Source of the DNA: a virus
DNA length: 46,995 bases
Reading direction: 5' to 3' (one strand)
IMG/VR virus record: IMGVR_UViG_3300008459_000083
Span: 1-46,995 of that record
In this document: positions 6,305 to 46,995 of the stretch, in pieces
Layout: the number at the start of each line of letters is the position of its first letter
How positions within the stretch are numbered: the first letter of the stretch is position 1
The notes under the pieces: model-generated
The model's input: only the letters and a program-made list of their open reading frames with translations
What the model was told of the DNA's origin: nothing
Databases searched by the model: none
Program-made: the position numbers and the translations under genes

Positions 6305-6322
6305 CTACACAGGAAAAAGCAC

Positions 6323-12813: not shown

Positions 12814-12815
12814 TC

Positions 12816-14426: not shown

Positions 14427-14434
14427 AGTAAATA
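14427..14434 (+). promoter_or_regulatory. late-promoter motif just before gp25
   Basis: AGTAAATA begins directly after the preceding TAG stop and ends 4 bases before the gp25 ATG. The TAAATA core fits T4 late promoters, but so close a start would give little or no leader. It could be leaderless, serve downstream genes, or be chance. Confidence 0.35.
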
Positions 14435-14438
14435 CATC

Positions 14439-14813
14439 ATGCCTACTTTTATTGGATTCAACACAATCAATCAAAACAAAAAATTCACCTTGGTGGATTT
14501 TGAATTAATCAAACGTGATCTCTTGAATGCATTCAACATACGCCAGGGAGAACTAGTGGGTCGTCCAGCGTATGGCACCAGCATCTTTGATTTTGTTTTT
14601 GAAAATCAATTGCAAGAAACAGAACGTGCCTTGTTGACAGAAATACAGCGTGTGGCCGGCGGTGATCCACGTGTGTTTGTCAGCAACATAGAAATATTCC
14701 CCCAACAAAATGGTATGCTATTGCAGTTAGAAATCACAGTGGTGCCCAGCACCGATGCACAACGTTTGGCCATATTTTTTGACCAATCTCAGCGTCAGGC
14801 CAGCTTTGTTTAA
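14439..14813 (+). CDS. gp25: baseplate wedge protein gp25 (GPW/gp25 family)
   Basis: This 124-residue protein has the gp25 pattern: FTLVDFELIKRDLLNAFNI, RQGELVGRPAYGTSIFDFVF, then ALLTEIQRVAGGDPRVFVSN and a final strand pair. It is a conserved sheath-baseplate connector, shared with contractile injection systems (TssE-like), and helps trigger sheath contraction. The length is near T4 gp25 (132). The diagnostic R-x-G-E-x-x-x-(R/N)-P-x-(Y/F)-G-(T/S) segment is intact. It is followed after 45 bases by gp6, its usual partner in the wedge. Confidence 0.93.
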   Translation: MPTFIGFNTINQNKKFTLVDFELIKRDLLNAFNIRQGELVGRPAYGTSIFDFVFENQLQETERALLTEIQRVAGGDPRVFVSNIEIFPQQNGMLLQLEITVVPSTDAQRLAIFFDQSQRQASFV

Positions 14814-14832
14814 CTACGCAGTTTATTCTGTC

Positions 14833-14840
14833 CATAAATA
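14833..14840 (+). promoter_or_regulatory. late-promoter motif for gp6 and the giant gene
   Basis: CATAAATA matches the T4 late consensus at 7 of 8 bases. It is 18 bases before the gp6 ATG, leaving a short leader with a weak TTGGAAA ribosome site. It is in the only true gap between gp25 and gp6. Confidence 0.6.
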
Positions 14841-14858
14841 ATAGAAATTGGAAAAACC

Positions 14859-32689: not shown

Positions 32690-32839
32690 ATGAACGAAAA
32701 TACCACTGGGCAACCACCAGAAAAATCCAACAACACTCCTGCTAAAAGACCCAATGAAACAGGATCTATCAGCGTAGAGGGATTTGTTCGTATTTTTGAT
32801 CCAAATACCAAAGAGAAATTTGTGGAGCAACGAGCATGA
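32690..32839 (+). CDS. 49-residue minigene, relative of the next protein's N-terminus
   Basis: This short gene encodes 49 residues: a polar, proline-rich, probably disordered half, then SVEGFVRIFDPNTKEKFVEQ. That second half matches the start of the next protein (KIEGFVKITDPISGEILLDK) in spacing and at key positions (EGFV, I, DP). Its TGA overlaps the next ATG as ATGA. A promoter-like GGTAAATA precedes it. It may be a truncated duplicate or an assembly-interface copy. It is a real gene by coupling and similarity; the function is unknown. Confidence 0.7.
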   Translation: MNENTTGQPPEKSNNTPAKRPNETGSISVEGFVRIFDPNTKEKFVEQRA

Positions 32840-33456
32840 TAATTCAACCCGGCCTAACCAAAATTGAAGGCTTTGTAAAAATTACCGATCCTATTTCGGG
32901 AGAGATTCTATTAGACAAAAAAAATGCCATACACTATGAGAATATTTCAATTGCCATGGCACAGAGTTTGAGCAATCGTACTCCGGAACAAGGCGGCGGT
33001 TGGATCTATCAAATGGCTTTTGGCAATGGCGGAAGCAGTGTAGACCCCACAGGAGTTATCACATATTTGCCCCCAAATACCACGGGACAAAATGCAGACC
33101 TGTATAACGAAACTTATTACAAAGTGGTCGACGATAACTCAGCAGCCAACACAGATCCCAGCAACAACAAGATGACAGTGTTACATACTTCTGGAACTGT
33201 TTATACGGATATCTTGGTAACTTGCTTGTTGGACTATGGCGAACCTATTGGACAACAGGCCTTTGACAACAGCACCAATTTCAACGGTGAATTTGTGTTC
33301 GACGAACTGGGTTTAAAATGCTGGAACGGCAGTGAAACTGATCTGCGCCTGATTACACATGTAATTTTTCACCCAGTACAAAAAAGTTTGAATAGACAGA
33401 TACAGATTGATTACACTTTGCGCATTCAAACTTTGACTAATTTGAGTGCTGCATAA
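32836..33456 (+). CDS. conserved virion structural protein, EGFVKITDP family
   Basis: This 206-residue protein starts at the ATG overlapping the minigene stop. The N-terminus (IEGFVKITDPISGEILLDK, then NAIHYENISIAMAQSLSNR) is a pattern I recall from conserved structural proteins of cyanophages and relatives. The rest is beta-rich (residues 50-200), including TDILVTCLLDYGEP, FVFDELGLKCWNGSET and LITHVIFHPVQKSLNRQIQI, consistent with a small baseplate or fibre-attachment domain. There is no enzyme motif, signal peptide or membrane segment. Its position between the giant protein and the fibre gene fits a connector role. Confidence 0.7.
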   Translation: MIIQPGLTKIEGFVKITDPISGEILLDKKNAIHYENISIAMAQSLSNRTPEQGGGWIYQMAFGNGGSSVDPTGVITYLPPNTTGQNADLYNETYYKVVDDNSAANTDPSNNKMTVLHTSGTVYTDILVTCLLDYGEPIGQQAFDNSTNFNGEFVFDELGLKCWNGSETDLRLITHVIFHPVQKSLNRQIQIDYTLRIQTLTNLSAA

Positions 33457-33459
33457 ATA
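33452..33459 (+). promoter_or_regulatory. late-promoter motif at the end of the EGFVKITDP gene
   Basis: CATAAATA overlaps the stop codon (33454-33456) of the preceding gene and is 50 bases before the fibre gene ATG. It is a close match to the T4 late consensus. Confidence 0.45.
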
Positions 33460-33476
33460 TGTGCATATTAAATTGC

Positions 33477-33484
33477 GGTAAATA
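33477..33484 (+). promoter_or_regulatory. late-promoter motif for the fibre gene
   Basis: GGTAAATA is 25 bases before ATG 33510 and is followed by GGAG about 13 bases before the start. It is 17 bases downstream of a second TAAATA motif, so this gap may hold tandem late promoters. Confidence 0.5.
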
Positions 33485-33509
33485 CACTAGGACGGAGTAA
33501 CTTAAAAAA

Positions 33510-34883
33510 ATGGCATATATAATCAATTTAACCAATGGCACCATATTTGCTACCATAGCAGATGGTACCATCAACACTTCCAGTTCCATGGTCCTGGTTG
33601 GCAAGAACTATGCAGGTTACGGAGAATTTCTAGATGAAAACTTTATTCATCTATTGGAAAACAGTGCTGACACAGCACCTCCAGGAGCACCATTAACTGG
33701 TCAACTCTGGTGGGACGCAAACACCAATGTGCTGAAAGTTTACAACGGTACGCTATTCAAGGTTGTCTGCGCAGCTGCTGCCAGCGCCACGGCTCCTACC
33801 AGCAACGTGGTTGGTGACCTATGGTTTGACACTACCAATGCCCAGCTCAAGGTTTATACAGGTACAACATTCTTGTTGGTTGGCCCACAATTTACAGCAG
33901 GCACAGGTGTAACTGGTGCCATTGTTGATACCATCACTGACAATACCGCAGTCAACCATGTGGTGATCAAATTGTTTGTACAAGACAGCGTGGTAGGAAT
34001 CGTCAGCAAAGATGCAACTTTTACTCCACAAGTGGCCATCAGTGGCTTTACCACTGTGCGCCCAGGAATCACACTCAGTACCTTGATTGGTTCTCAAATT
34101 CCCTTGTTCCAAGGCACAGCAACATCGGCCCAGGGCTTGATTTCTGGCAATGTGGTGTTAACTCCTAACAACTTTATGAGGTCAGATACCAACACCTCCA
34201 CCACCGGCACACTCAGCGTGCTGAACAACAGTGGACTAAGTGTAGGTGACAACTCGGACTTCCGTGTCACTGTGGCTGGCACAGCAGTATCGGTCAACAA
34301 TCAAACTTCTGGCGGCAACTTTAGCATTGGCGTCAACGTTGGTGGAACACCAACTCCGGCTTTGAGCATACTTGGTACCACGGCTGTTGTTGGTGTATTA
34401 GGGATATCTAATCTGAATGCAGGCAACGGAGTCGGCAATATCGGATCTTCCAGTAACTATTTCAATCGCTTGTTTGCCACAGCAACCACAGCACTTTATG
34501 CGGACGTGGCTGAACGCTTTGCGTCCGATCAAGAATATGCTCCGGGTACTGTGGTAGAACTTGGCGGCACAGCAGAAATTACTCGTTCAAACACAGATCT
34601 CAGTGACAATGTGTTTGGTGTTATCAGTACCCAAGCAGCCTATCTTATGAATGGCGGCGCTGGGTCAGATGCTACACATCCTCCAGTGGCCATGACTGGC
34701 CGTGTTCCGGTCCTTGTGACTGGGATTGTACGCAAAGGCGATCGGTTGGTATCGGCTGGCAATGGTCTGGCACGTGCTGCCCAACCAGGAGAGGCCACTG
34801 CATTTAACACTGTGGGCCGTGCATTACATGACAAGTTGGAAGACACCCAAGGCACTGTCGAAGCAATTGTAACAATCAAATAA
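33510..34883 (+). CDS. tail fibre-like protein with Peptidase_G2-like C-terminal domain
   Basis: This 457-residue protein starts with a fibre-base region (MAYIINLTNGTIFATIADG). Two short repeats typical of phage fibres follow: LTGQLWWDANTNVLKVYNGT (about 63-82) and VVGDLWFDTTNAQLKVYTGT (about 98-118). The middle is a beta-rich shaft with N/G/S-rich strands. The C-terminus (about 325-457) has YADVAERFASDQEYAPGTVV, NVFGVISTQAAYLM, and PVAMTGRVPVLVTGIVRKGD, resembling the Peptidase_G2 autocleavage/chaperone domain of phage tail spikes. Such domains fold the trimer and then cut themselves off. A ribosome site and a late promoter precede it. The fibre role is likely; autocleavage is inferred. Confidence 0.7.
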   Translation: MAYIINLTNGTIFATIADGTINTSSSMVLVGKNYAGYGEFLDENFIHLLENSADTAPPGAPLTGQLWWDANTNVLKVYNGTLFKVVCAAAASATAPTSNVVGDLWFDTTNAQLKVYTGTTFLLVGPQFTAGTGVTGAIVDTITDNTAVNHVVIKLFVQDSVVGIVSKDATFTPQVAISGFTTVRPGITLSTLIGSQIPLFQGTATSAQGLISGNVVLTPNNFMRSDTNTSTTGTLSVLNNSGLSVGDNSDFRVTVAGTAVSVNNQTSGGNFSIGVNVGGTPTPALSILGTTAVVGVLGISNLNAGNGVGNIGSSSNYFNRLFATATTALYADVAERFASDQEYAPGTVVELGGTAEITRSNTDLSDNVFGVISTQAAYLMNGGAGSDATHPPVAMTGRVPVLVTGIVRKGDRLVSAGNGLARAAQPGEATAFNTVGRALHDKLEDTQGTVEAIVTIK

Positions 34884-34897
34884 ATTAGGAAGCAACA

Positions 34898-35890
34898 ATG
34901 ACGTATTCATCCGGCTCACTGATTGAAGCGGTAGACTATAATGGGTTTGCCAACAACACTGCTGGCGCCAATGTCAACACAGTCTGGGGCACAGGTTCTG
35001 GAGATAGTGGCTGGGGACAAGCCAGTACACTGACCACGGTAGCAGCTGGCACTGATGTAACAGCCACACAATGGGCCAACCTGAACAGTAGAATCACCAG
35101 CATGGCCGCTCAAACAAACACAACAATCACATCCAGGGTAAACCCAGTGGTTGGAGATATCATTGGTATTTTATCTGCCGTAAATACCGACCTGACCAAT
35201 TGCACAACCAATCGTGGCGATGCTGCAGCTTCTGGAACCACCAGCAACACCTGGACGGGCAGTACAGCCAAGACCACAGCCACTGGATCTGGACAATCTG
35301 CTTGGACTATTACATGGACTCATGTCATCACTTTTCCCAGTGCTGATCAAGCCAGATATTTTTGGAATGCCGGCGGCCTAGTTCGTTTGGACATGAGCAA
35401 AACTGCCAACGTGACCGATGCTGACCCAGACTGGAACGTCTTTGTGGGCACAGTGGGTCAACTGTATCTAAGTGGACGAGTCAACGGCGCCAGTCAAACT
35501 ATTGCCACTATACCCTATAGCGGATTCACTCGTTCAGTCAATCCCCAGCCTGTAGCGAGTACCACAGGATGGTACACACTTGGATCAGGTGCAGCACCCA
35601 CTACCATGTTCCAAATCAACGACCCAGTGAGTCCTTACACTGGTAACTTCATAAGGGTCACTGCCGAAGTCAATGCTGGCAGGACCACACTGACCTTGAG
35701 GACCTTATGGAGTAGCAGTGGAACAGCCATTGTAGGTTCTACTGCCAATATTTCTGGTGGCACCGATACTGCAAGCCCGTATGTGAGTTTTGGCACTGCT
35801 CCTGCGGTATTGTGCAGATTTATTCCACCGTCGACCGCGTCTCTTACCGACAGCTGGGGCACACCAACTATTGCAGCTTCGGTTGTTTAA
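34898..35890 (+). CDS. tail or virion structural protein (unassigned)
   Basis: This 330-residue protein is rich in T, S, G, N and A. It starts at ATG 34898 with AGGAAG as ribosome site in the 14-base gap after the fibre gene. The first part (about 1-110) has NTVWGTGSGDSGWGQ and a helical TATQWANLNSRITSMAAQTN segment, a pattern I remember from conserved marine T4-like structural proteins. The remainder (about 120-330) is beta-sandwich-like, with WTITWTHVITFPSADQARYF, FWNAGGLVRLDMS and FIRVTAEVNAGRTTLTLRTL strands. There is no catalytic motif. It may be a fibre tip, adhesin or head/tail decoration protein. Confidence 0.6.
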   Translation: MTYSSGSLIEAVDYNGFANNTAGANVNTVWGTGSGDSGWGQASTLTTVAAGTDVTATQWANLNSRITSMAAQTNTTITSRVNPVVGDIIGILSAVNTDLTNCTTNRGDAAASGTTSNTWTGSTAKTTATGSGQSAWTITWTHVITFPSADQARYFWNAGGLVRLDMSKTANVTDADPDWNVFVGTVGQLYLSGRVNGASQTIATIPYSGFTRSVNPQPVASTTGWYTLGSGAAPTTMFQINDPVSPYTGNFIRVTAEVNAGRTTLTLRTLWSSSGTAIVGSTANISGGTDTASPYVSFGTAPAVLCRFIPPSTASLTDSWGTPTIAASVV

Positions 35891-35906: not shown

Positions 35907-35935
35907 TCGACTCTGCGGTAAATTTGTAGTATAAT
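35907..35935 (+). promoter_or_regulatory. sigma70-like promoter for the right-hand operon, possibly leaderless
   Basis: TCGACT (35907-35912) and TATAAT (35930-35935) are separated by 17 bases. The -10 box is perfect and ends 6 bases before ATG 35942, so transcription would start on or next to the start codon. No Shine-Dalgarno site is present. It is the only promoter-like sequence I see in the 51-base gap upstream of the long overlapping operon. Confidence 0.5.
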
Positions 35936-35941: not shown

Positions 35942-36244
35942 ATGGATACCAATCAACTTGTGGCACACGCCCGTGCTAGGTTTGAGCATGAATCTGCTCG
36001 CCGCGCATTACGAGAAAAATACCAGGCCAAATTTACTTTTGCTCATGCCGGAGGCATGTGGCAGGCCGGTCCAGAACTGCTGACCCTGTTAAAACTGTGC
36101 TCGGGCACTGTGGTGATCCTGGATCTGTACGAAAATCCTGTCCGGATACAGGCCGAAGAACTGTATGAACTGGCCTTGCAACGCTGGCAAGAATGCTTGA
36201 ATGCCTGGCTGATCGAATACGAACAGTCGAACCAACAACGATGA
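35942..36244 (+). CDS. conserved small phage protein, first gene of the right-hand operon
   Basis: This 100-residue soluble protein begins with a charged helix (QLVAHARARFEHESARRALR), a short strand section (AKFTFAHAGGMWQAGPELL) and a VVILDLYENPVRI segment, and ends in a long helix (ELYELALQRWQECLNAW). I recall proteins of this shape in marine T4-like phages near structural genes, all of unknown function. It starts 6 bases after a TATAAT box. Its TGA overlaps the next ATG as ATGA. No metal or catalytic motif is visible. Confidence 0.65.
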   Translation: MDTNQLVAHARARFEHESARRALREKYQAKFTFAHAGGMWQAGPELLTLLKLCSGTVVILDLYENPVRIQAEELYELALQRWQECLNAWLIEYEQSNQQR

Positions 36245-37002
36245 CCACGGGAGCTTTGATATTTGCTCACAACAATGATCACATAGACTATGTGGCCATG
36301 GCTCGCTGGTCAGCCCAAAACATAGAGCGTCATCTTGGTATACCCACACACGTTGTGACTGATACCGTCACAGACAACTCCAACTCAAGATGGTTTGGGG
36401 ATTACAACATCAACATGGCCTGGCACAACCAAAGCCGAGTCACTGCTTATGATGCCAGTCCTTGGGATCGTACCTTGGTCTTGGATGCAGATTATGTGGT
36501 GGCCAGTGATCAACTACGAACTATCATGGATACCAATCAAGATTTTTTGTGCTTTCGCCGAGCCTATGATGCCACAGGAGTCAATGACTTTGTGGGGCAC
36601 GATACCTTTGGAGATGTGCGCATGCCCATGTGGTGGGCTACGGTCATGTGGTTTAATCGTAGCCAGCACAGTCAACTCATATTTGAAGCCATGGCCATGA
36701 TACGCAACAACTGGACACACTACAGACGCATATACAAAATCAATCAGGCCACCTATCGCAACGACCATGCGCTCAGTATTGCCTTGTGCCTATTACAAGG
36801 GCACACTCTGGACGTGCCTGCTGTACCTTGGAGCATGGCTTCGGTCATGCCAGAATACCGGTTGACGCAAACTGATTCGGATTCTTATCGTGTGGAGTTT
36901 GAGGATCACTTGCAACGCTCGCGCTGGATTGAATTGCATGATCAAGATTTCCATGCCATGGGCAAACAACAACTAGGAGACATAGTTGCCAATTGTTGCT
37001 GA
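36241..37002 (+). CDS. GT-A-like glycosyltransferase candidate (DAD motif)
   Basis: This 253-residue protein has the outline of a nucleotide-sugar transferase. The N-terminal Rossmann-like part (ALIFAHNNDHIDYVAMA, then THVVTDTVTD) leads to a D-x-D motif in LVLDADYVVASDQL (about 79-92), which would bind metal and nucleotide-sugar. The acceptor half contains MPMWWATVMWFNRS (about 124-137) and RNDHALSIALCLLQGH (about 180-195). The start is ATG 36241, overlapping the previous stop; longer in-frame starts lie inside the upstream gene. The next gene is a shorter relative. Donor and acceptor are unknown. Confidence 0.65.
   Translation: MTTGALIFAHNNDHIDYVAMARWSAQNIERHLGIPTHVVTDTVTDNSNSRWFGDYNINMAWHNQSRVTAYDASPWDRTLVLDADYVVASDQLRTIMDTNQDFLCFRRAYDATGVNDFVGHDTFGDVRMPMWWATVMWFNRSQHSQLIFEAMAMIRNNWTHYRRIYKINQATYRNDHALSIALCLLQGHTLDVPAVPWSMASVMPEYRLTQTDSDSYRVEFEDHLQRSRWIELHDQDFHAMGKQQLGDIVANCC
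36975..36979 (+). promoter_or_regulatory. ribosome binding site deciding a TTG start
   Basis: AGGAG lies 6 bases before TTG 36986 and supports that unusual start codon for the second glycosyltransferase-like gene. The first ATG inside that frame would remove the conserved strand around GYVIPAIGP. Confidence 0.65.
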
Positions 37003-37711
37003 ACGTGGATACGTTATTCCTGCCATTGGGCCTGTGTACGAAGCTTGCGCTGAACAACTGGCTCACAGTCTTTATCAATTCCATCCTGCGGCCAATGTCA
37101 CTATAGTTACCGCGGACATGTTACCCTATGGAGATCAGGGCGGCTGGGCCAACGACTGGCAAATGTTTAGTGTCAGTCCTTATAGACAAACTATCAAACT
37201 AGAAGCTGACATGATTGTAGCCAGCCCAGTGGACCATTGGTGGACCTTGTTTGAACTGCGCGATGTTGTGATCAGTCTAGGTTGCAGAGATTTTTATGGA
37301 CAATCGTCCTCAGTGAGGACTTATAGAAAATGCTTTGATACTAATCATTTGCCAGATGTGTTCAACGCTGTCACTTACTGGAGATTGAGTTCAACAGCCA
37401 AGGAATTTTTTGATCTGGTCCGGCAAATATTTGAGCATTGGACCGAATTCCGTAAACTGTTGAAGTTTGCAGATGATCAACCCAGCACCGATGTGGTCTA
37501 TGCCATGGCCGCCAAGATCATGGGCCCGGAACGTGTGACTTTGCCTGTTGGAGTTGGTCCCAGTATTGTACACATGAAACGCGGTATCAATCCCATAAAG
37601 ACCGACGACTGGACTCAGGAGTTAATTTGGGAAACAGATCCTTTCCGGATAAACACTATTGCACAATCAGGATTCGTACACTATCACAAGAAAGATTGGA
37701 GGATACAATGA
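36986..37711 (+). CDS. second GT-A-like glycosyltransferase candidate (EAD in place of DAD)
   Basis: This 241-residue protein starts at a TTG with a good ribosome site. The layout is like the preceding gene: N-terminal GYVIPAIGPVYEACAEQLAH, VTIVTADMLPYGDQ, then IKLEADMIVASPVDHWW (about 69-85) where the D-x-D position reads EAD. A middle FYGQSSSVRTYRKCF-DTNHLPDVFNAVTYWR segment and a late GPSIVHMKRGINPI strand follow. It resembles glycosyltransferases of the GT-A fold. The Glu may still bind metal, or the protein may use an acceptor or donor differently. It overlaps the previous gene by 17 bases and the next by ATGA. Confidence 0.6.
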   Translation: MPIVAERGYVIPAIGPVYEACAEQLAHSLYQFHPAANVTIVTADMLPYGDQGGWANDWQMFSVSPYRQTIKLEADMIVASPVDHWWTLFELRDVVISLGCRDFYGQSSSVRTYRKCFDTNHLPDVFNAVTYWRLSSTAKEFFDLVRQIFEHWTEFRKLLKFADDQPSTDVVYAMAAKIMGPERVTLPVGVGPSIVHMKRGINPIKTDDWTQELIWETDPFRINTIAQSGFVHYHKKDWRIQ

Positions 37712-37953
37712 GCAATGATCATGATAAAGTCAAACACAGCCGCCGCATCAGCAAAACACGCGATGCCGAAATACGTCAAGTAAAAATTGCCCGAGCTCAC
37801 GGGGTCACAGTAAAAGAATATCATAGATATGCCAAGCATCATGCCATGAACTGCGGTCGTCCACACTGCTTGTTGTGTGGCAACCCACGCAGGATCTGGC
37901 GTGAAAAAACCATACAAGAACAACGCAACGAACAACGCAAAGACGATGAATAA
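37708..37953 (+). CDS. small CG-x3-C-x2-CGNPR protein (likely zinc-binding)
   Basis: This 81-residue basic protein starts at ATG 37708 with GGAGG 5 bases upstream. The N-terminal half is a charged helix (SRRISKTRDAEIRQVKIARAH). The core is YHRYAKHHAMNCGRPHCLLC followed by GNPR (about 44-67), with Cys at 55, 60 and 63 and nearby His residues that could bind zinc or iron. Small proteins with this CG-x-P-x-C-x-x-CGNPR signature are widespread in phages and bacteria as I recall, without a known role. It overlaps the neighbours (ATGA upstream, 8 bases downstream). RNA binding is possible from charge; this is inference. Confidence 0.7.
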   Translation: MSNDHDKVKHSRRISKTRDAEIRQVKIARAHGVTVKEYHRYAKHHAMNCGRPHCLLCGNPRRIWREKTIQEQRNEQRKDDE

Positions 37954-38284
37954 GCTGACTGTTGAAAACTTTTGGAAAATATGGTCTGAATCCGCGGTCC
38001 AGGCACCAGCGGTATTTTATAGATTATACTACAATGACGATGGCAGTCCTATGTATTACACCATGGAAGATTTACCAGGTAATTACGTTGAGGTGGACAT
38101 AAACACATATCTTGTTGGATCTCACAATGTTCGCGTGGTTGATCAAAAATTAGTAGATCTACCGACTGTGGGGATGGCAACAAAATTACGACCCAATTTG
38201 TCAACAGGCACAGCCTGTGATCCACACGATGTTTGTGTTGTGGTTGACGAAAATGTGTCGCACGTAAAATGGAGTTTGCAATGA
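37946..38284 (+). CDS. conserved small protein of unknown function
   Basis: This 112-residue protein starts at ATG 37946, overlapping the previous stop by 8 bases. It has the pattern VENFWKIWSESAVQAPAVFY, then RLYYNDDGSPMYYTMEDLPG, then YVEVDINTYLVGSHNVRVVD, a mixed alpha/beta domain with a proline/glycine turn. I recall similar short proteins in marine phage genomes near glycosyltransferase-like genes. No enzyme motif or membrane segment is visible. Its stop overlaps the next ATG as ATGA. It is not a likely radical SAM precursor peptide, because it is folded-looking throughout and has no Cys/Gly-rich core. Confidence 0.6.
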   Translation: MNKLTVENFWKIWSESAVQAPAVFYRLYYNDDGSPMYYTMEDLPGNYVEVDINTYLVGSHNVRVVDQKLVDLPTVGMATKLRPNLSTGTACDPHDVCVVVDENVSHVKWSLQ

Positions 38285-39204
38285 ACAAAATAGACATAGC
38301 AGATCTAGACTGTATCTATCTCAGTTATGATGAGCCCAACAAAGAAGAAAACTGGATAAAAATCAAAAACATGATACCATGGGCACGTCGTGTGGATGGC
38401 ATCAAAGGAAGTGATTCGGCACACAAGGCAGCCGCTGAAGCCAGTGGCAGTGAAAGATTTGTGTTGATCGACGGCGACAACATACCAGATGCAAAGTTTT
38501 TTAATCTACAACTAGAACTTGATAGTACCAATGTAGATTGTGTATTTCGTTGGCGAAGCAGAAATCACATCAATGGTCTCATGTACGGCAATGGTGGACT
38601 CAGTTGCTGGACCCAACAGTTTGTCATGGACATGCGTACACATGAAAACTCAGATGGTGCCACAGAAAGCAATGTGGAATTTTGTTTTGATCCCAAATAC
38701 ATAGCCATGCATGATTGCTACTCGACCACATATCCCAATGCCAGTGAAAAACAGGCCTGGCGTGCTGGATTCCGTGAAGGTGTCAAAATGTGCCTGAACA
38801 AGGGAGCCAGACCCAGCTTGACAGAATTCCAACAACGTGTGCATCATAGAAATCTTGATCACTTGACCATATGGCACAATGTGGGTCGCGATGTGGAACA
38901 CGGTATCTGGTCCGTAGCAGGTAGCCGCATGGGCACTTATATGACCATGCTCACTGAGTGGGACTATCGATTGGTACAGGACTTTGATGCTCTTGAAGAT
39001 CTATGGAAAACCGTGCAGGATCATGATCCTGAAATTGTGGCTGGACGGGTCAGTGAAGATCTGCACACACAATTGGATCTTCCCATGATCATGCTTGATG
39101 CCAATGCCAGCAAGTTTTTTAAACATCATTATCGTAGCAATTGGCACAATCGAGGTTTGATGGTGCGAGAGATAGATGTAATAAGGCAACAAGAAGGATG
39201 GTAA
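38281..39204 (+). CDS. third glycosyltransferase-like protein (DGDN motif)
   Basis: This 307-residue protein starts LDCIYLSYDEPNKEENW (about 9-25), continues with PWARRVDGIKGSDSAHKAAA (about 33-52), and has FVLIDGDNIPDAKFF (about 60-74). This is the layout of a GT-A domain, with DGD as the metal-binding motif. The rest includes GLMYGNGGLSCWTQQFVMDM (about 103-122), NVEFCFDPKYIAMHDCYSTT, and HIWH-type His residues near the centre. The family is one I recall from marine phages and uncultivated bacteria, with no known substrate. It overlaps both neighbours and is directly upstream of the first radical SAM gene. The start ATG at 38281 is preferred over an in-frame ATG at 38269. Confidence 0.6.
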   Translation: MNKIDIADLDCIYLSYDEPNKEENWIKIKNMIPWARRVDGIKGSDSAHKAAAEASGSERFVLIDGDNIPDAKFFNLQLELDSTNVDCVFRWRSRNHINGLMYGNGGLSCWTQQFVMDMRTHENSDGATESNVEFCFDPKYIAMHDCYSTTYPNASEKQAWRAGFREGVKMCLNKGARPSLTEFQQRVHHRNLDHLTIWHNVGRDVEHGIWSVAGSRMGTYMTMLTEWDYRLVQDFDALEDLWKTVQDHDPEIVAGRVSEDLHTQLDLPMIMLDANASKFFKHHYRSNWHNRGLMVREIDVIRQQEGW

Positions 39205-40583
39205 AAAGTGATTTCTTGCACAGTGCCGAACAGATGCAACAGTCATTGGGACCAGCCTTGTGTTTGGCTAAATGGAAACAGGTCAGCTTGCACTTGCCCA
39301 CGGGCCTAAACAACAGTTGCTACCATCCACCTCTACACCCTATTCCTGCAGAGTTGTTAGAAGATAATCCATCAGCACTACACAATACTCCGCACAAAAA
39401 AGAACAGCGTAAAATTATGTTACGGCAAGAACGTCCAGCAGAATGTAGCTATTGTTGGAACATGGAAGACAACAATAAACTTAGTGACAGACATTATAGA
39501 AGTGGCGAGCCTTGGGCTGCCAAAGATTTTGATGTCGTGGTAAATTCAACCGGAGAAGAAGATGTCTTACCTAGTTATGTTGAAGTTAATTTTAATCATG
39601 CTTGTAATCTTAAATGTAGTTATTGCAGTCCACAGTTTAGTTCCTCATGGGCGGACGAAGTTGAGAAACTGGGAGGATTTCCTACTAGCCGTGTTCACAA
39701 TGATCCCAGTCACTTTGTTGGCCGCAACCGTCCTATCCCAGTAAGAGAACACAATCCCTATGTAGACGCCTTCTGGTCTTGGTGGCCCGACTTGTATCCA
39801 GAGCTAGAACACTTCCGTATGACCGGCGGCGAGCCATTGCTAGACAAAAACACTTATCGTGTATTTGATTATGTATTTGCTAATCCTAGTCCCAAGCTTC
39901 ACTTGAATGTGACCAGTAACTTCAGTGTGGATGAGCGGTCATGGCAGAAGTATTTGGGCTATGTCAAACAGTTATGTGAAGGTGAACAGATAGAACACTT
40001 CATGCAGTATGTGAGCTTGGACAGTTTTGGACCTCAATCCGAGTATATCAGACACGGCCTGGACTTTGATCTGCTGTGGGACCGTGTAAATCAGTTCCTC
40101 ACAGAAATTCCAGGACGTAACAGCGTAACATTTATTGTGACCATGAACAATTTGAGTGTCACTGGTTTGCCACACTTGTTTGCTGGTATACTTGGTCTAC
40201 GCAAGATATACAGTACAACATATCAGCGTGTGTGGTTTGATACGCCAGTGCTTCGCCAGCCTGCCTGGCAAAGTCTGCAACTCTTACCTGAAAGTTATGT
40301 GGATCAACTTGAACAACTATGGGCCTGGATGATCAGACAGACGGAACGACCAGAAGCTCCGTTTCAAGGCTTTAAAGATTACGAGATAGCACGTCTAGAT
40401 CGTGACATAGCCTGGATGCGTGATGGGCAAAGGTTAGATTCTACATACTTACAAAAAAATAAAGCAGATTTTTATAGATTCTTTAGTGAACACGATCGTC
40501 GCCGCGGCACTGACTTTTTAACAACATTTCCAGAAATGAACGCCTGGTGGAAGGAATGCGAGTATCATGCTAGGCAATCGTAA
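39198..40583 (+). CDS. radical SAM protein with N-terminal twitch-like cluster, subfamily A (copy 1)
   Basis: This 461-residue enzyme has the radical SAM [4Fe-4S] motif C136-NLK-C140-SY-C143 and a GGEP SAM-binding loop (FRMTGGEPLLD, about 213). Ahead of it is a second cysteine set: C22 (in LCLAKW), C41 (SCYHPP), C83 and C86 (CSYCW), probably an auxiliary Fe-S site like a half-SPASM (twitch) domain placed N-terminally. The C-terminus has RRRGTDFLTTFPEMNAWW, shared with copy 2. Such proteins use SAM-derived radicals on peptides, sugars or bases; the substrate is unknown. The start is ATG 39198; longer open codons upstream overlap the previous gene. It overlaps the next gene by 17 bases. Confidence 0.85.
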   Translation: MVKSDFLHSAEQMQQSLGPALCLAKWKQVSLHLPTGLNNSCYHPPLHPIPAELLEDNPSALHNTPHKKEQRKIMLRQERPAECSYCWNMEDNNKLSDRHYRSGEPWAAKDFDVVVNSTGEEDVLPSYVEVNFNHACNLKCSYCSPQFSSSWADEVEKLGGFPTSRVHNDPSHFVGRNRPIPVREHNPYVDAFWSWWPDLYPELEHFRMTGGEPLLDKNTYRVFDYVFANPSPKLHLNVTSNFSVDERSWQKYLGYVKQLCEGEQIEHFMQYVSLDSFGPQSEYIRHGLDFDLLWDRVNQFLTEIPGRNSVTFIVTMNNLSVTGLPHLFAGILGLRKIYSTTYQRVWFDTPVLRQPAWQSLQLLPESYVDQLEQLWAWMIRQTERPEAPFQGFKDYEIARLDRDIAWMRDGQRLDSTYLQKNKADFYRFFSEHDRRRGTDFLTTFPEMNAWWKECEYHARQS

Positions 40584-41709
40584 ATTAATACTGGATGTAT
40601 GTTGTGAAGTGTACGATCTGGTGTTGCCTTGGATGGACGGAGATTTTTTTGATTTCAGCAAACATAACGTAGTGCCGGGTGCTGTGTACTTGATTGGCCG
40701 GGCACAGATGAATCACAATCGAGAGCACATTCGTGAACTGGTCGAATCCAACACCATACGAGTGATCTTGAGTAATCCAACCGAAGGAAGCTCTACACTC
40801 AGAGATCACTGTGAACATGTACACAAATGCGGTGATCTGATCCGCGGTCACCGAGTGCTGTTGATCGGTGGCGGCGACATGGATTCAGATTGGCCTTGCT
40901 TGCAGTATGAAAGTTTTTTGCCTAAGATTTTAGACTACGAGGAAAATCAACAAGCCACGAGTCAATCATCGCGCATATACGAGACCCGACACAAGCCATA
41001 CAAATTTTTATTTTTAAATGGACGTAGTCGTCCTCATAGAAAATACCTGTTGGAAAAATTCAAATTAGATGGTGTGTTAGGTCAATCCTTGTGGACCAAT
41101 TTGGAAAATCGTTCAGGTTCTCATGGGCAACTAGCACTATGGTACCAAGGACAGGATCTCATGCTCACGGCCACTGATGTCAAAACCCTGCCAGAACAAT
41201 ACGAAGTAGATAGATATTGTCAACAGGTCAACAAGACTTTTGATTCTGGATTCGTAAAAAGCGATCTGTTTAATCAAGAGTGGGGAGAAATATACATTGA
41301 GCCTGCACCTTACATAGACACCTATTTTAGCCTGGTCACAGAAACAGTGTTTGATTATCCTTACAGTTTTCGTACAGAAAAAATTTGGAAGCCCATTGCC
41401 ATGGCTCATCCCTGGATAGCTGTGGCCAATGCCGGTTATTACAGAGACATGCATCGTTTGGGATTTAAATCTTTTGGTCACCTAATTGATGAAAGTTTTG
41501 ATCAAATTGAAGATTCACAAAAACGCATTGAACGTATTAGTGAGGTGGTTACGGACCTGTGCAAGCAAAATCTGGATGAATTCCTTGCGTCTGCACAAAA
41601 TATCTGTAAATACAATCAACAACATCTAGCAGACATGCGCCTGCAGGTCCGTAAAGAATTTCCCGAACGTTTTTTCCAATTTATTGCCCGGTATCAATTC
41701 AATGAATGA
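40567..41709 (+). CDS. glycosyltransferase-like protein with TEKIWKP C-terminal motif (copy 1)
   Basis: This 380-residue protein sits between two radical SAM genes. The N-terminal half is Rossmann-like, with VYLIGRAQMNHNREHIRELV (about 40-59), VLLIGGGDMDSDWP (about 96-109) and FLFLNGRSRPHRKYLLEKF (about 147-165). The C-terminal domain has YFSLVTETVFDYPYSFRTEK (about 253-272), IWKPIAMAHPWIAVAN, and LGFKSFGHLIDESFDQIEDS (about 301-320). The TEK-x-(W/F/Y)-KP and GF-x-(S/T)-(F/Y)-x-x-(L)-(I/F)-DES(F/Y)D pattern recalls the donor-binding end of GT-B enzymes such as fucosyltransferases. The gene at 45541 shares this end. Transfer of a sugar is a reasonable guess, unproven. Confidence 0.6.
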   Translation: MLGNRKLILDVCCEVYDLVLPWMDGDFFDFSKHNVVPGAVYLIGRAQMNHNREHIRELVESNTIRVILSNPTEGSSTLRDHCEHVHKCGDLIRGHRVLLIGGGDMDSDWPCLQYESFLPKILDYEENQQATSQSSRIYETRHKPYKFLFLNGRSRPHRKYLLEKFKLDGVLGQSLWTNLENRSGSHGQLALWYQGQDLMLTATDVKTLPEQYEVDRYCQQVNKTFDSGFVKSDLFNQEWGEIYIEPAPYIDTYFSLVTETVFDYPYSFRTEKIWKPIAMAHPWIAVANAGYYRDMHRLGFKSFGHLIDESFDQIEDSQKRIERISEVVTDLCKQNLDEFLASAQNICKYNQQHLADMRLQVRKEFPERFFQFIARYQFNE

Positions 41710-43039
41710 TTTAAAATTCCGTCAGCAGGTCCTTGACACAAAAAGTGCCAGCTTCTGTGCGGCCAAATGGTACAATGCTACCATTTGGCTAGGATCTGGG
41801 CAGACTACAAGCTGTCATCATCCTCCGGCACATGCCATTGATGCAGAAGCTATCAAAACTAATCCCAGTGCTATACACAACACAGTAGAAAAGAAAATAG
41901 ATCGGTTAAACATGCAGTTAGGCAACCGCCCCAAGGGTTGTGAATATTGCTGGAAGATCGAAGATATGGGCCGCGATGCTGTTAGCGACCGTGTGTACAA
42001 GAGTAAAATTTATCCTATCAAGGCCCTAGATGAAGCATATATTCAACCGCATCAAGAAGATGTCAACCTCAGAACGCTGGAAATTGCTTTTGACCGTACT
42101 TGTCAGTTTGCTTGCTCCTATTGCAATCCCGCCTTTAGTAGTAGCTGGGTCCGTGATATCAATCAAAATGGGCCATATGCCGGCTTGGTTAGCGACGGTA
42201 GGAATCACTTTACCCATGCTCATGACCATAGTCAGCTGTATCGCTACGGTGAAACTAATCCGTATGTTGAGGCCTTCTTTGCATGGTGGGAAACAGACCT
42301 ACACCAAACGCTACAAGAACTAAGAATCACCGGCGGTGAGCCATTGATGTCAGGAGAAACTTGGAAGTTAATTGATTGGTTCAAGGCCAATCAAGGACGC
42401 AGTCAGACTCGATTAGCCATTAATTCAAACCTGGGCATGGACCGATTAAAATTGTTGGACTTTATTAATCGCATACAAGATATTCCACATCTTGAGATTT
42501 ATACCAGCCAGGAAAGCATTGGTGCACAGGCCGAGTACATCAGAGATGGACTTGATTATGATCTATGGATGCACAATGTACAAGAACTGTTAGAGCATGA
42601 TGCAATCAAGGCTGTGCATTGTATGGCCACTATCAATGCCTTGTGCCTGGACAGTCTTCCAGATTTGTTGAATCAATTGATCCGACTCAAACAAGTTTAT
42701 GGTCGCGAGCGTGTGAACTTTACCTTGAACATACTGCGTTTTCCTAGTTTTCAAAGTGCCTTGGTGTTGCCAGATAACATTCGCACACAATACAAAAACA
42801 ATCTTAAAATCTGGCTACAACTTAATCAAGATAGTCCACTCATGCACGAACACGAAATCAATCACATGCAACGGTTGATTGATTACCTAGACGTGGTCAA
42901 AACTCCGCATTCAGACACATTTGACATGCCCAAGCTACACAATGATTTTAAACAGTTTTATCAGCAGTACGATCAGCGCCGTGGCAAGAACTTTTGTGAA
43001 ACGTTTCCTGAATTAAAAGAATGGTACAACTCATTATGA
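41702..43039 (+). CDS. radical SAM protein with N-terminal twitch-like cluster, subfamily A (copy 2)
   Basis: This 445-residue paralogue of the gene at 39198 has the radical SAM triad C134-QFA-C138-SY-C141 and a GGEP loop (LRITGGEPLMS). The N-terminal cluster Cys are C19 (FCAAKW), C38 (SCHHPP), C80 and C83 (CEYCW), in the same order and spacing as copy 1. The C-terminal motif RRGKNFCETFPELKEWY is also shared. The ATG at 41702 overlaps the previous stop by 8 bases; an in-frame TTG at 41684 would add 6 residues but lacks a site. Divergence from copy 1 is large, so the two probably act on different substrates or as a pair. Confidence 0.85.
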   Translation: MNDLKFRQQVLDTKSASFCAAKWYNATIWLGSGQTTSCHHPPAHAIDAEAIKTNPSAIHNTVEKKIDRLNMQLGNRPKGCEYCWKIEDMGRDAVSDRVYKSKIYPIKALDEAYIQPHQEDVNLRTLEIAFDRTCQFACSYCNPAFSSSWVRDINQNGPYAGLVSDGRNHFTHAHDHSQLYRYGETNPYVEAFFAWWETDLHQTLQELRITGGEPLMSGETWKLIDWFKANQGRSQTRLAINSNLGMDRLKLLDFINRIQDIPHLEIYTSQESIGAQAEYIRDGLDYDLWMHNVQELLEHDAIKAVHCMATINALCLDSLPDLLNQLIRLKQVYGRERVNFTLNILRFPSFQSALVLPDNIRTQYKNNLKIWLQLNQDSPLMHEHEINHMQRLIDYLDVVKTPHSDTFDMPKLHNDFKQFYQQYDQRRGKNFCETFPELKEWYNSL

Positions 43040-44340
43040 AATACAATTGGAAAGATCGTGTACCAGTATACATTCCCATAGAAAAACTAAGTGACCAACA
43101 GCGCGGGCGACTGATAGACAGTGATCATTTTTGCATGATCCCTTGGATTCACATGCATGGCTGGCCCGACGGTAGAGCGTTTCCTTGTTGCCTGGGAGAG
43201 GATGCACATCATATTGGCAATCTCAAAGAACAGTCAATGGAAACCATATGGAACGACGAACCCATGCGTGAAATTCGACGCAACATGCTGGCAGATCAAC
43301 CGTCAAAGCAATGCACACGTTGTTATGAACAAGAAGATGCTGGGTTCTCCAGCATGCGCAACAATTCAAACAAACACTTTGGGCAACACATAGCAGAAGT
43401 AGATGCCACCCTGCCTGACGGCACCCATCCCGAAATGAAACTGCGTTACTGGGACGTGCGGTTTTCAAACATCTGTAATCTTAAATGTCGCAGTTGCGGC
43501 AGTATCTTTAGCTCACGCTGGTACGACGATGACGTGCGATTGAATAACGGCAAGCCCCTGCGCCCCAGAGTGCAGTTTGCGGGCCGCACAGAAATGGACA
43601 TATGGCAACAAATGGAGCCGCAGATTCAGCATCTAGAGCAGATCTATTTTGCCGGTGGCGAGCCATTAATAATGGAAGAACACACACGTATCCTGGAAAA
43701 GCTGATTGAGTCTGGCAATACCCGTTTGCGTTTGATATACAATACAAACCTAACAGAATTACGCTACAAAAAGAAATCAGTACTAGAGTTGTGGAAACAC
43801 TTTTCCAATGTATGTGTGGCTGCAAGCCTAGACGACATGGGCGAGCGAGCGGCTGTTATCCGTTCGGGCACTAACTGGGCAGAAGTAGAACAAAACATCA
43901 GAGATCTAAAAGCTCAGTGTCCGCACATTGACTTTATGATATCTCCTACCCTGAGCATAATGAACATATGGAATTTTACCAAGTTCCATCGTTACATGGT
44001 GGATCAGAATTTCATCCGCGCCGGTGACTTTAATTTGAACATCCTACAGAGTCCCTCGGAGTATAGAATTGACATACTGCCTGATGATATTAAACAACGT
44101 TTTCTAGCAGAGTTTGAAGCACACATAGAATGGTTGCGTCCCCGGGATCCGCTACAACGTGCCACTGGCGGATTTGAAGCTGCTGTCAAGTTCATGCTGG
44201 CACAGGATCGCACACAGTTACTCACAGACTTCTGGGAAACAGCCAGTGACCTTGACTGGAGTCGCAACGAACGCCTGATTGATGCGGTGCCAGAATTGGC
44301 AGAGATCATTCAGTACAAACCCGCACACACACGAGTATGA
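43036..44340 (+). CDS. radical SAM protein with N-terminal twitch domain, subfamily B (copy 1)
   Basis: This 434-residue enzyme has the radical SAM triad C147-NLK-C151-RS-C154 and a GGEP loop (IYFAGGEPLIMEEH). The N-terminal twitch-like domain has FCMIPWIHMHGWPDG with C33, then PCC (C51, C52), IGNLKEQSMETIWNDEPMRE, and C93-TR-C96. This C-x2-PW ... PCC ... IWN ... C-x2-C pattern is the half-SPASM signature, here placed before the catalytic domain (matching the N_Twi_rSAM type as I recall). The end has DWSRNERLIDAVPELAEIIQ. It joins both neighbours by ATGA. The substrate is unknown. Confidence 0.87.
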   Translation: MKYNWKDRVPVYIPIEKLSDQQRGRLIDSDHFCMIPWIHMHGWPDGRAFPCCLGEDAHHIGNLKEQSMETIWNDEPMREIRRNMLADQPSKQCTRCYEQEDAGFSSMRNNSNKHFGQHIAEVDATLPDGTHPEMKLRYWDVRFSNICNLKCRSCGSIFSSRWYDDDVRLNNGKPLRPRVQFAGRTEMDIWQQMEPQIQHLEQIYFAGGEPLIMEEHTRILEKLIESGNTRLRLIYNTNLTELRYKKKSVLELWKHFSNVCVAASLDDMGERAAVIRSGTNWAEVEQNIRDLKAQCPHIDFMISPTLSIMNIWNFTKFHRYMVDQNFIRAGDFNLNILQSPSEYRIDILPDDIKQRFLAEFEAHIEWLRPRDPLQRATGGFEAAVKFMLAQDRTQLLTDFWETASDLDWSRNERLIDAVPELAEIIQYKPAHTRV

Positions 44341-45554
44341 ACCTACCACATGAAAAATTCTGTGTGTTACCTTGGGTCAGCTTGGAGACCAGTCCTATAG
44401 GCACAGTCAGACCTTGTTGTCTGGCCGAAGATGAAATCGTAGACAACACTGGCAAAAAGTTTGACTTGAACACTGCCAGCTTTCTAGCTATACAAAACAG
44501 CCACTACATGCGTGAATTACGCCAGGAATTTATTGATGCCAAGCAACCACAGACCTGTAGAAAATGCTGGAAAGAAGAATGTGCTGGCCGTACCAGCAAA
44601 CGCATGCACACACTAGATCGTCTTAAACACATGTTGCCAGACCAAGACTGGTCTGCGGATGCCAAACCCTTGATGTTCCTGGATCTTAAACTGGGCAATA
44701 TCTGCAATCTCAAATGCCGTATCTGTGGCAGCTGGTCTAGCTCAACATTTGCCGCAGAAGAATTGGCCAACCTAGGACCCAATGAGGATCGTAAAAGTAA
44801 TCATCATTATCGCATGTTGCGACAAGGTGCCTGGCCTAGAGAAAATCCTGTGTTTTGGACCGAGATTGAAAAAATTGTAGATCAAATACAGTATATTGAG
44901 TTTACCGGCGGCGAACCATTCATGATACAAGAACACTTTGATTTACTACAGAGATTGGTAGACCAGGGCCTGGCCGGCGGCATAGAGATACACTACAACA
45001 CCAATGGCACACAGTGGCCAGAACAGGCTGAAAATATCTGGCGCCATTTCAAGACAGTGGAAATAGCTTTTAGCATAGACGATGTGGGTGACAGATTTGA
45101 GTATCAGCGTACCAATGCGGTGTGGAGTGAGGTGCTTGATAATATTCAAAAATTTAAACTCATGCGCAAAAGGCATAACAACATACGATTACAAGTTTGT
45201 AGTACAGTAAATGTATTCAATGTTTATTATTTGGAAGACGTGGCCACGTGGATTGACGCACAGAAATTTGATTTTGTATATTGGAATATGATACACGAAG
45301 CATACTATTTTAGCATAGCCACTCTGCCTGAATCAGCCAAGCAGGTCATTGCTGATCGGTTGTTAAACGCTCAAGTGACAGATCAGATCAAAAAAGAATT
45401 TGTTAACATAGTAGAATTTATAAACAACGGTATGAGCCTAGACGGCAATATCTTACGTATGCGCACAGCTGATTTAGATCGTAAACGCAATCAAAATCTC
45501 CTGGATGTGGAACCAGAATTTGCCAAATTGATTGATTATCATGGACCCAACTAA
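44337..45554 (+). CDS. radical SAM protein with N-terminal twitch domain, subfamily B (copy 2)
   Basis: This 405-residue paralogue of the preceding gene has twitch-like Cys at C9 (FCVLPW), C27 and C28 (RPCC), C74 and C77 (CRKC). The radical SAM triad is C123-NLK-C127-RI-C130, followed by FTGGEPFMIQEH. The end has RKRNQNLLDVEPEFAKLIDY, alignable with copy 1. It starts with the ATGA overlap at 44337 and overlaps the next gene by 14 bases. The shorter N-terminus relative to copy 1 reflects a missing leader of about 24 residues before the first Cys. The enzyme class is clear; the product is unknown. Confidence 0.87.
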   Translation: MNLPHEKFCVLPWVSLETSPIGTVRPCCLAEDEIVDNTGKKFDLNTASFLAIQNSHYMRELRQEFIDAKQPQTCRKCWKEECAGRTSKRMHTLDRLKHMLPDQDWSADAKPLMFLDLKLGNICNLKCRICGSWSSSTFAAEELANLGPNEDRKSNHHYRMLRQGAWPRENPVFWTEIEKIVDQIQYIEFTGGEPFMIQEHFDLLQRLVDQGLAGGIEIHYNTNGTQWPEQAENIWRHFKTVEIAFSIDDVGDRFEYQRTNAVWSEVLDNIQKFKLMRKRHNNIRLQVCSTVNVFNVYYLEDVATWIDAQKFDFVYWNMIHEAYYFSIATLPESAKQVIADRLLNAQVTDQIKKEFVNIVEFINNGMSLDGNILRMRTADLDRKRNQNLLDVEPEFAKLIDYHGPN

Positions 45555-46536
45555 ACCCACAGTCCTGATCGAGTCGGGTTCAAACCATACTCTACACAAA
45601 TTTTTAAAAGAATATTTTAATGTCACAGTGTACGATCCCACAAAGACCTATGACAAACACACATTGGTATTGGCAACTATTTTTGCCAATCATTGGTGGC
45701 AAGATTTATATGAGCAGGGGCATAGAATTATTATAGATAATCTGTCTGAACCTTATGATTATTTTAAAAAGACTTATCGGTTCATGGACCCGGAACGGTA
45801 TTATGCACTACACAACGCCAATTGGTTTTGGTATGTGGAAGCAGAAAGCATATTGAACCAGTCATACACTCCAGATAAAACCTATAAAAAACTAGCATTA
45901 ATGCCCATCAACTATGAAAAGGCACATCGTACCTTGTTGTTCGACCGCATGCAACCTTATTTAGATGATTGCGTGTACAGTTTTGCCGCACGTGGCATAT
46001 ATCTTCCTGGCGATCGCGAAGATAAACGACCACCTTGGGATCGGCATTTCAATGCCGAGTGGTACGATGCAACTTACTTTACTCTAGCAGCAGAAACATG
46101 GAGCGATGACCCTGAAGAATATCTAAGATATGGCCGCAGGCCCGACGACGATTTATTGGTACAAGGCGTCTGTTATATAGGTCCGTATCCTTTTATCACG
46201 GAAAAGACTTATAAACCCATAGCACATCAACATCCTTTTATGATCTATGGACAATCGCACACACTTGAACGACTGCATGCACTGGGCTTTGAAACTTACG
46301 AAAATCTTTTTGATGAAAGTTATGATCGTGTGACCAATACTGATGTCAATCAACACGATAACAAATTAGATATAATTATCAACAATGTACGCGACTTTGA
46401 ACGCAGGCCCTACGATCAATTGACCCAGGAGAAAATCCAGCATAATTACGCACACTACACTGATTTACAGTTGATTAAACAACGTGTACAAAAAGAAATC
46501 ATTGATCCTTTACTAGATTATGCAAACAAAATCTAA
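45541..46536 (+). CDS. glycosyltransferase-like protein with TEKTYKP C-terminal motif (copy 2)
   Basis: This 331-residue protein shares the C-terminal domain of the gene at 40567: FTLAAETWSDDPEEYL (about 181-196), GPYPFITEKTYKPIAHQHPF (about 215-234), and LGFETYENLFDESYDRVTNT (about 246-265). The N-terminal half is different and shorter, with ILIESGSNHTLHKFL-like and RIIIDNLSEPYDYF (about 62-75) segments. The shared end suggests the same donor class with a different acceptor. The ATG 45541 lies inside the end of the previous gene. It overlaps the next radical SAM gene by 17 bases. Confidence 0.6.
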   Translation: MDPTKPTVLIESGSNHTLHKFLKEYFNVTVYDPTKTYDKHTLVLATIFANHWWQDLYEQGHRIIIDNLSEPYDYFKKTYRFMDPERYYALHNANWFWYVEAESILNQSYTPDKTYKKLALMPINYEKAHRTLLFDRMQPYLDDCVYSFAARGIYLPGDREDKRPPWDRHFNAEWYDATYFTLAAETWSDDPEEYLRYGRRPDDDLLVQGVCYIGPYPFITEKTYKPIAHQHPFMIYGQSHTLERLHALGFETYENLFDESYDRVTNTDVNQHDNKLDIIINNVRDFERRPYDQLTQEKIQHNYAHYTDLQLIKQRVQKEIIDPLLDYANKI

Positions 46537-46995
46537 AACCTTGTGCATGGCACCGTGGACGCACACTTACCTCAGTCCACAGACTGAACGCAGGATGTGT
46601 TGTGCGTCAAGAGAACCTGCGCAAAACTTTGAGCAGTACATAGACACTGCTTCGGGCACAGGCAAGTACATTCCTATCACCTTGGATCAGCACTGGAACA
46701 GTGAACACATGCGTAGTGTGCGTCGTCGTATGATGACTGGCGAAGTCTTGCCCGAGTGTGAAGTGTGCAACGATAAATTATTGAACACTGATGTGTATCG
46801 CAGTTATTTCAATCAACTGTTTGCTCATAAACAAGACGAGATATGGAACTCCACCGACAGCACAGGATACACTACTATGAAACCTGTGAGCTGGGATTAT
46901 AGATTCAGCAATCTCTGCAATTTTAAATGCAGGATGTGCGGTGACATGTTGAGCAGTGCTTGGGAAAGTGAGCAACGTCAACACAACATGATTGA
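46520..46995 (+). CDS. radical SAM protein with N-terminal twitch domain, subfamily B (copy 3), cut by window end
   Basis: The reading frame runs off the right edge after 158 codons. The visible part has C9 (LCMAPW), C27 and C28 (RMCC), C80 and C83 (CEVC), and the radical SAM triad C133-NFK-C137-RM-C140, in the same order as the two preceding subfamily B genes. The GGEP loop and catalytic barrel lie beyond the window. The start is ATG 46520, overlapping the previous stop by 17 bases. This is the fifth radical SAM gene of the operon, so the cassette continues to the right. Confidence 0.85.
   Translation, partial: MQTKSKTLCMAPWTHTYLSPQTERRMCCASREPAQNFEQYIDTASGTGKYIPITLDQHWNSEHMRSVRRRMMTGEVLPECEVCNDKLLNTDVYRSYFNQLFAHKQDEIWNSTDSTGYTTMKPVSWDYRFSNLCNFKCRMCGDMLSSAWESEQRQHNMI

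Follow-up and report, generated by a model that had tools for sequence, protein, structure and literature searches.

Radical S-adenosylmethionine (SAM) enzymes and glycosyltransferases (GTs) are known from several phage surveys. Marine T4-like phages have a host recognition cluster that contains tail fibers, GTs, and radical SAM cassettes, and a change of the host surface was proposed as its effect (PMC7029224). The T4-like genome TARA_ERS488813_N000010 combines genes for Fe-S assembly with 12 radical SAM genes (PMC5332604), and radical SAM and GT genes are common in Tasman Sea phages (PMC7150976). A pyrroloquinoline quinone (PQQ) role was proposed for the radical SAM genes of Lake Baikal phages (PMC7678222). 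Here, we describe an operon of 13 genes, five of them encoding radical SAM proteins and five encoding GT-like proteins, in IMG/VR virus record IMGVR_UViG_3300008459_000083. The window is the whole stretch that was analyzed, positions 1 to 46,995 of that record. The favored reading, to which we give an even chance, is that the operon encodes a core, pre-late glycan-modification pathway in a group of jumbo T4-like phages that has no cultured member.

Operon organization and source phage

The 13 genes run from position 35942 to the window edge, and each adjacent pair overlaps by 4 to ~19 bases depending on start choice, which agrees with an earlier reading of the sequence alone (the sequence-only reading). 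The record stops inside g13, and the operon continues in longer contigs. Conservation was scored in 108 nonredundant loci of at least 18 kilobases (kb), the window counted in. The features are as follows.

32836–35890, + strand: tA, tB, and tC, three tail-region genes immediately 5' of the operon; PHROG matches for tA and tB.
35930–35935, + strand: TATAAT −10 element, 6 nucleotides (nt) 5' of the g1 ATG; predicted operon promoter of the sigma70-like, near-leaderless type.
35942–36244, + strand: g1, first operon gene, 100 residues; no Pfam or PHROG match; labeled in 89/108 loci.
36241–37002, + strand: g2, GT-A-like glycosyltransferase with a DAD motif (invariant D82/D84), related to g3; 107/108 loci.
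36986–37711, + strand: g3, GT8-like (glycogenin-like) GT-A glycosyltransferase; profile match to glycogenin; 107/108 loci.
37708–37953, + strand: g4, optional small protein with a Cys-rich stretch; phrog_4499 (no function annotated); close relatives only.
37946–38284, + strand: g5, ~112 residues; labeled in 78/108 loci, 91 counting unlabeled small open reading frames (ORFs) at the same position.
38281–39204, + strand: g6, GT-A-like glycosyltransferase, among the most conserved genes; alternative start 38269.
39201–40583, + strand: g7, radical SAM enzyme 1 (N_Twi_rSAM), GTG start; NF033640 308 bits.
40567–41709, + strand: g8, GT-B-like accessory protein; GT-B neighbors of the model; 84/108 loci.
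41702–43039, + strand: g9, radical SAM enzyme 2 (N_Twi_rSAM); NF033640 302 bits; alternative start 41684.
43021–44340, + strand: g10, radical SAM enzyme 3 (N_Twi_rSAM); NF033640 403 bits; SPASM 2.4e-12 at the N end.
44337–45554, + strand: g11, radical SAM enzyme 4 (N_Twi_rSAM); NF033640 339 bits.
45541–46536, + strand: g12, GT-B-like accessory protein; C-terminal half in common with g8; 28/108 loci.
46520–46995, + strand: g13, radical SAM enzyme 5 (N_Twi_rSAM), cut at the record end; NF033640 141 bits over 158 residues.

The virus fragment has gp46/47-like genes, a late sigma factor, and T4-type baseplate proteins, which place it among the T4-like (jumbo) phages. Its gp6-like baseplate protein is nearest to those of jumbo T4-like phages such as Phosso, Atu_ph07, and XbC2 (~34% identity). 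The window represents part of the genome of a jumbo T4-like phage that has not been cultured. A tblastn search of 50,697 phage records with g3, g6, and g8 gave zero matches, and g7 and g10 returned only 22% matches in two Vibrio phages.

Five radical SAM enzymes

The sequence-only reading had singled out five genes for a CxxxCxxC motif and a second N-terminal Cys set. These are g7, g9, g10, g11, and g13; each has both features, and all five belong to NCBIfam NF033640, twitch domain-containing radical SAM proteins without an assigned family function. The curated cut-off of this family is a whole-protein score of 170 bits, and g7, g9, g10, and g11 all clear it. The g13 score is under the cut-off because the protein is truncated at the record edge; full-length relatives exceed it, and full-length g13 orthologues elsewhere have a median identity of 80% to the window. 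The SPASM profile matches the N ends of g10, g11, and g13. The CxxxCxxC motif is invariant in every locus aligned (83–106 loci per paralogue), and each paralogue has four or five invariant N-terminal auxiliary-cluster cysteines. All seven Fe-S cysteines of g7 (106 loci) and of g9 (104 loci), and all eight of g10 (99 loci), are invariant, as are the Fe-S cysteines of g11 along with C288 (91 loci). A tree resolved the five genes into five separate supported groups, each with freshwater and marine phage members, and some divergent extra radical SAM copies fell outside them. The five orthologous groups and the invariant cluster cysteines therefore suggest five ancient, active-looking, and non-interchangeable enzymes. 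A PQQ role is disfavored: NF033640 is the best family for all five proteins, and no PQQ model was found among the matches listed. Radical chemistry on sugars has precedents in DesII, AprD4, and BtrN.

Glycosyltransferase-like genes

Three GT-A-like genes and two genes with a common GT-B-like end had been read from the sequence, and profile and structure comparisons bore this out to differing degrees. The g3-family profile matched glycogenin over residues 5–111 (E = 1.7e-7), and the acidic metal motif in g3 reads ExD. This profile match places g3 putatively with the glycogenin-like GT8 enzymes; g3 also matches phrog_1903, which has no function annotated in PHROG. The g2 protein is related to g3 (E = 4e-7), and its D82xD84 motif is invariant in 26 homologues. 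In g6, the motif is DGDN, with D62, D64, and N65 invariant. The g6 model has a predicted local distance difference test (pLDDT) score of 93, and its GT-A matches, which include SunS, ThuS, HddC, and TarP, are weak (E ~1e-4, template modeling (TM) scores of 0.25–0.35). The C-terminal halves of g8 and g12 are related (E = 2e-13). Most top matches of the g8 model (pLDDT 95.5) are GT-B enzymes, again weak, with a best E of 1.8e-3 and TM scores of 0.31–0.40. Because the structure matches are weak, a GT-A-like fold for g6 and a GT-B-like fold for g8 and g12 are probable rather than established. The g2, g6, and g8 profiles did not reach a convincing solved structure by sequence. Both g8 and g12 lie between radical SAM genes, as had been pointed out, but across the loci they are accessory members.

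Conservation of gene set and order

A g6 scan of IMG/VR gave 482 confirmed stretches, 71–77% identical among the matches listed. The sequence-only reading had proposed checking whether the set and order recur in other T4-like contigs, and across the 108 loci the order is largely kept as g1-g2-g3-(g5)-g6-g7-g9-g10-g11-g13-(350-residue protein)-carbamoyltransferase. The most frequent order, exactly tC-g1-g2-g3-g6-g7-g9-g10-g11-g13, occurs in 44 loci; most other orders arise from a missing label, an additional radical SAM copy, or a contig end. Besides the counts listed above, g6 is present in all 108 loci, g7 in 106, g9 in 105, g10 in 103, g11 in 97, and g13 in 92, and some losses are contig ends. 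An IMG/VR pattern scan with g2 alone gave zero matches because short words of g2 are not conserved, although blastp places g2 in nearly all loci. Median identities to the window are 65–80% for g6, g7, g9, g11, and g13 and 49% for g10, compared to 81% for tA, 61% for tB, and 48% for tC. Conservation of g6 and of four radical SAM genes thus exceeds that of the adjacent tB and tC. The preservation of order over 108 nonredundant loci puts the gene set far from chance, and on this comparative evidence, it is a fixed core rather than a loose cassette.

These data bear on the idea that the operon collects unrelated cargo in a variable region and that its genes do not work together. Inserts do differ among loci, and the up to 21 N_Twi_rSAM matches per genome are mostly outside the operon. 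We consider the cargo explanation very unlikely in light of the fixed order, the orthologues that most loci have for each enzyme, the invariant cysteines, the common promoter, and the overlapping reading frames. Across 90 loci, we counted 125 inserts, most of them located between g6 and g7; 30 loci were without any. The inserts with Pfam matches include sulfotransferase, adenosine 5'-phosphosulfate (APS) kinase, uridine diphosphate (UDP)-glucose dehydrogenase, epimerase, DegT, AMP-binding enzyme, and further radical SAM proteins. Inserts with GDS/GCS-like starts resemble SGNH hydrolases, had no Pfam match, and were excluded from the evidence.

Promoter and predicted expression

Of 88 loci, 73 have a −10-like hexamer no more than 18 nt from the g1 ATG, and in most, a TATAAT-like element is found 4–7 nt 5' of the ATG. 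Exact TATAAT occurs within 60 nt 5' of g1 in 53/89 loci compared to 4.2 expected, and a late-type TAAATA motif precedes tB in 87/93 loci compared to 9.6 expected. In the window, the TATAAT spacing of g1 recurs only at the gp46-like gene, and T4 makes gp46 earlier than the late genes. A terminator-like hairpin lies 5' of the promoter in 67/89 loci. From these motifs, the operon is predicted to be transcribed in the early or middle period as a near-leaderless message; its conserved neighbors tA-tB-tC would form a transcription unit of their own.

This arrangement touches the most substantial alternative, in which tail proteins such as tB and tC would be the substrates, with radical SAM enzymes acting on their side chains and GTs attaching sugars, so that adsorption is diversified. 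In nearly all loci, tA-tB-tC precede the operon, and marine phage contigs within bacterial metagenome-assembled genome (MAG) bins have this tail-GT order too, some of them with fewer or other radical SAM genes. The best fold matches of g6 are the peptide S-glycosyltransferases SunS and ThuS, at a TM score of only ~0.3, and radical SAM proteins with SPASM-like clusters often modify peptides or proteins. Tail modification is a serious rival because of this fixed position behind the tail genes and the frequency of protein modification among SPASM-like enzymes. The sigma70-like promoter, however, sets the operon apart from the tail genes with their late motif; the carbamoyltransferase, nucleoside diphosphate (NDP)-sugar, and sulfation genes indicate sugar substrates; and bacterial relatives of g6 and the radical SAM genes are found without phage tail genes. 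On balance, we regard tail modification as rather unlikely.

Among the marine MAG contigs L256–L272, several binned as Rickettsiales, Pelagibacter, Rhodobacteraceae, and Verrucomicrobia carry the tail-GT-radical SAM order. Contigs of this kind look like misbinned phage DNA.

The two small operon proteins without known function, g1 and g5, raise the prospect that one of them is the precursor of a ribosomally synthesized and post-translationally modified peptide (RiPP)-like product that undergoes glycosylation as well as maturation by the radical SAM enzymes. Peptide pathways with multiple radical SAM enzymes exist. The homologues of g1 and g5 are conserved over much of their length and have no short Cys- or repeat-rich core, the g5 position aligns poorly in distant relatives, and precursor or leader-peptide families gave zero matches. 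Neither g1 nor g5, the two proteins to which the precursor search was confined, has a leader and core. A RiPP-like pathway thus appears very improbable.

Gene neighborhood

Longer contigs extend the operon. A protein of ~350 residues without a known family follows g13 in 54/65 loci, and a carbamoyltransferase comes next in all 20 loci long enough. Further 3' is a convergent gene group with an epimerase and a DegT-type aminotransferase. These two families are present in 9/10 jumbo contigs, in eight as an adjacent pair ~5–14 kb from the operon. A-type Fe-S carrier genes occur in 9/10 tested jumbo contigs, usually two of them, and N_Twi_rSAM matches number 7–21 per contig in twelve jumbo-type contigs. 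Bacterial chromosomal g6 homologues (Rhodobacterales, Bdellovibrionota) lie near GT1, GT2, GT28-C, PMT, or DegT genes, and those of Bdellovibrionota have radical SAM genes nearby as well.

The carbamoyltransferase that adjoins the operon, and early expression, would be compatible with a pathway in which the radical SAM enzymes, GTs, and carbamoyltransferase decorate a phage DNA base; T4 glucosylates its own DNA. PF00303 (thymidylate synthase/hydroxymethylase) was found in just 1/10 related jumbo contigs, with ThyX in the region instead, and the window genome itself is a fragment. A Tet_JBP search gave zero matches in the phages, but its controls were equally silent. Neither the GT8-like g3 nor the context of sugar-nucleotide genes points to base modification, and we judge DNA hypermodification very improbable. 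Of the dedicated modification pathway suggested by the sequence-only reading for a surface glycan, peptide, or DNA base, the dedication gains support from the strict order, orthology, and catalytic cysteines, and glycan chemistry gains it from context; the DNA base does not.

Several observations in the same contigs stand apart from these arguments. G002 (346,856 bases) and G003 (320,175 bases) have 21 and 19 N_Twi_rSAM matches, respectively, mostly outside the operon, which is very many for a virus. A second conserved block lies between the carbamoyltransferase and the epimerase-DegT pair (L252, positions 3186–6439, − strand; also L250, L254, and L255). It consists of three conserved genes with no known family (~340, 384, and 368 residues) and an opposite-strand gene of 543–1,132 residues. 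In one jumbo contig (L254, positions 3261–5967), an AMP-binding enzyme and a tryptophan-halogenase-family protein directly follow the carbamoyltransferase, an unexpected pair for a phage. In the window, a single 4,792-residue ORF (18299–32677) between the gp6-like baseplate gene and the tail-fiber genes occupies the VrlC place of T4-like phages. A small gene adjoining the gp46-like gene (774–1205, − strand) has a PHROG match annotated NAD synthetase and also matches homing endonuclease families; it probably encodes a homing endonuclease.

Proposed pathway

The sugar-related enzymes in and near the operon and the GT homologues, taken together with the context of the bacterial homologues and the early promoter that is predicted, favor a glycan pathway that acts on the infected cell. 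From the observed gene content, order, orthology, cysteines, promoter motif, and context, we infer every chemical step, target, and purpose of the following scheme. Host RNA polymerase would transcribe the operon from the sigma70-like promoter soon after infection. The GT-A enzymes g2, g3, and g6 would make or lengthen a short glycan that draws partly on an amino sugar from the phage's own epimerase and DegT aminotransferase. Each of the five radical SAM enzymes may then perform one radical step (oxidation, deoxygenation, epimerization, or similar) on the glycan or its sugar nucleotides, and phage A-type Fe-S carriers may help load their clusters. The carbamoyltransferase and exchangeable inserts (GT-B enzymes, sulfotransferases, APS kinase, and sugar dehydrogenases) would supply strain-specific decoration. 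The likeliest purpose would be altered surface sugars of the infected cell, for example against superinfection.

Several points weigh against this scheme. The substrate class is read from context because none of the enzymes has a characterized close homologue, and SPASM- and twitch-type radical SAM enzymes often have peptide substrates. The operon position beside the tail genes suits tail modification equally well. The fold matches of g6 and g8 are weak (TM scores of 0.25–0.40), the promoter timing is a prediction from motifs, and the terminator hairpin that precedes g1 elsewhere is not present in the window's own copy.

Relation to known systems

The literature searched, whose coverage stopped short of subscription papers and most preprints, yielded no description of the fixed core of five enzymes, of its orthology or promoter, or of its spread through jumbo phages that have not been cultured. 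Viral radical enzymes are usually recorded singly as auxiliary genes; here, five constitute a conserved core. Phages with this core are represented by hundreds of environmental contigs and by none of the 50,697 deposited phage genomes. If the product is a surface glycan, the operon would give phages a new way to remodel their hosts and keep competitors out, and sugar chemistry could draw enzymes from it. In the boldest reading, viruses encode and have long maintained an assembly line of three GTs and five radical SAM enzymes that cannot replace one another; its glycan chemistry would be one for which cells offer no described example, and it would be a core function of an entire giant-phage lineage. 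We advance this reading tentatively, as falling somewhat short of an even prospect.

The kind of region is already known, because PMC7029224, PMC7150976, and PMC5332604 describe such genes. The statement in the sequence-only reading that no characterized system is known to have this content was too strong: T4-like phages with radical SAM genes are on record in both PMC7029224, where GTs accompany them, and PMC5332604. The Vibrio phages K566/K567 are jumbo phages with several radical SAM genes, and as in the operon, related radical SAM genes adjoin GT-like genes. They differ in their ~22% identity, a different gene order, no match to g6, and no tail neighborhood seen. The cluster of radical SAM and GT-like genes in K566/K567 (L007, positions 12720–22181) is close to a gene with the annotation lipid A acylation protein PagP and is possibly a cultivable system. 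TARA_ERS488813_N000010 is likewise T4-like and combines many radical SAM genes with an A-type Fe-S carrier gene; gene order, GT association, and a pathway are not described in the part of PMC5332604 that was covered, and the comparison is by description only. All five radical SAM proteins match NF033640, the four complete ones far over the cut-off, and this family without assigned function gains a testable setting from five fixed paralogues in one operon. A further likeness is to the pelagimyophage and cyanomyophage host recognition cluster, which is also T4-like, lies in a variable region after the VrlC gene, and combines tail fibers, GTs, and radical SAM cassettes, with GT8 the commonest GT family (PMC7029224). 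The radical SAM genes of that cluster are described as added cassettes, whereas in the jumbo phages analyzed here, none of which is cultured, three GTs and five orthologous radical SAM genes make up a fixed core with a single predicted promoter.

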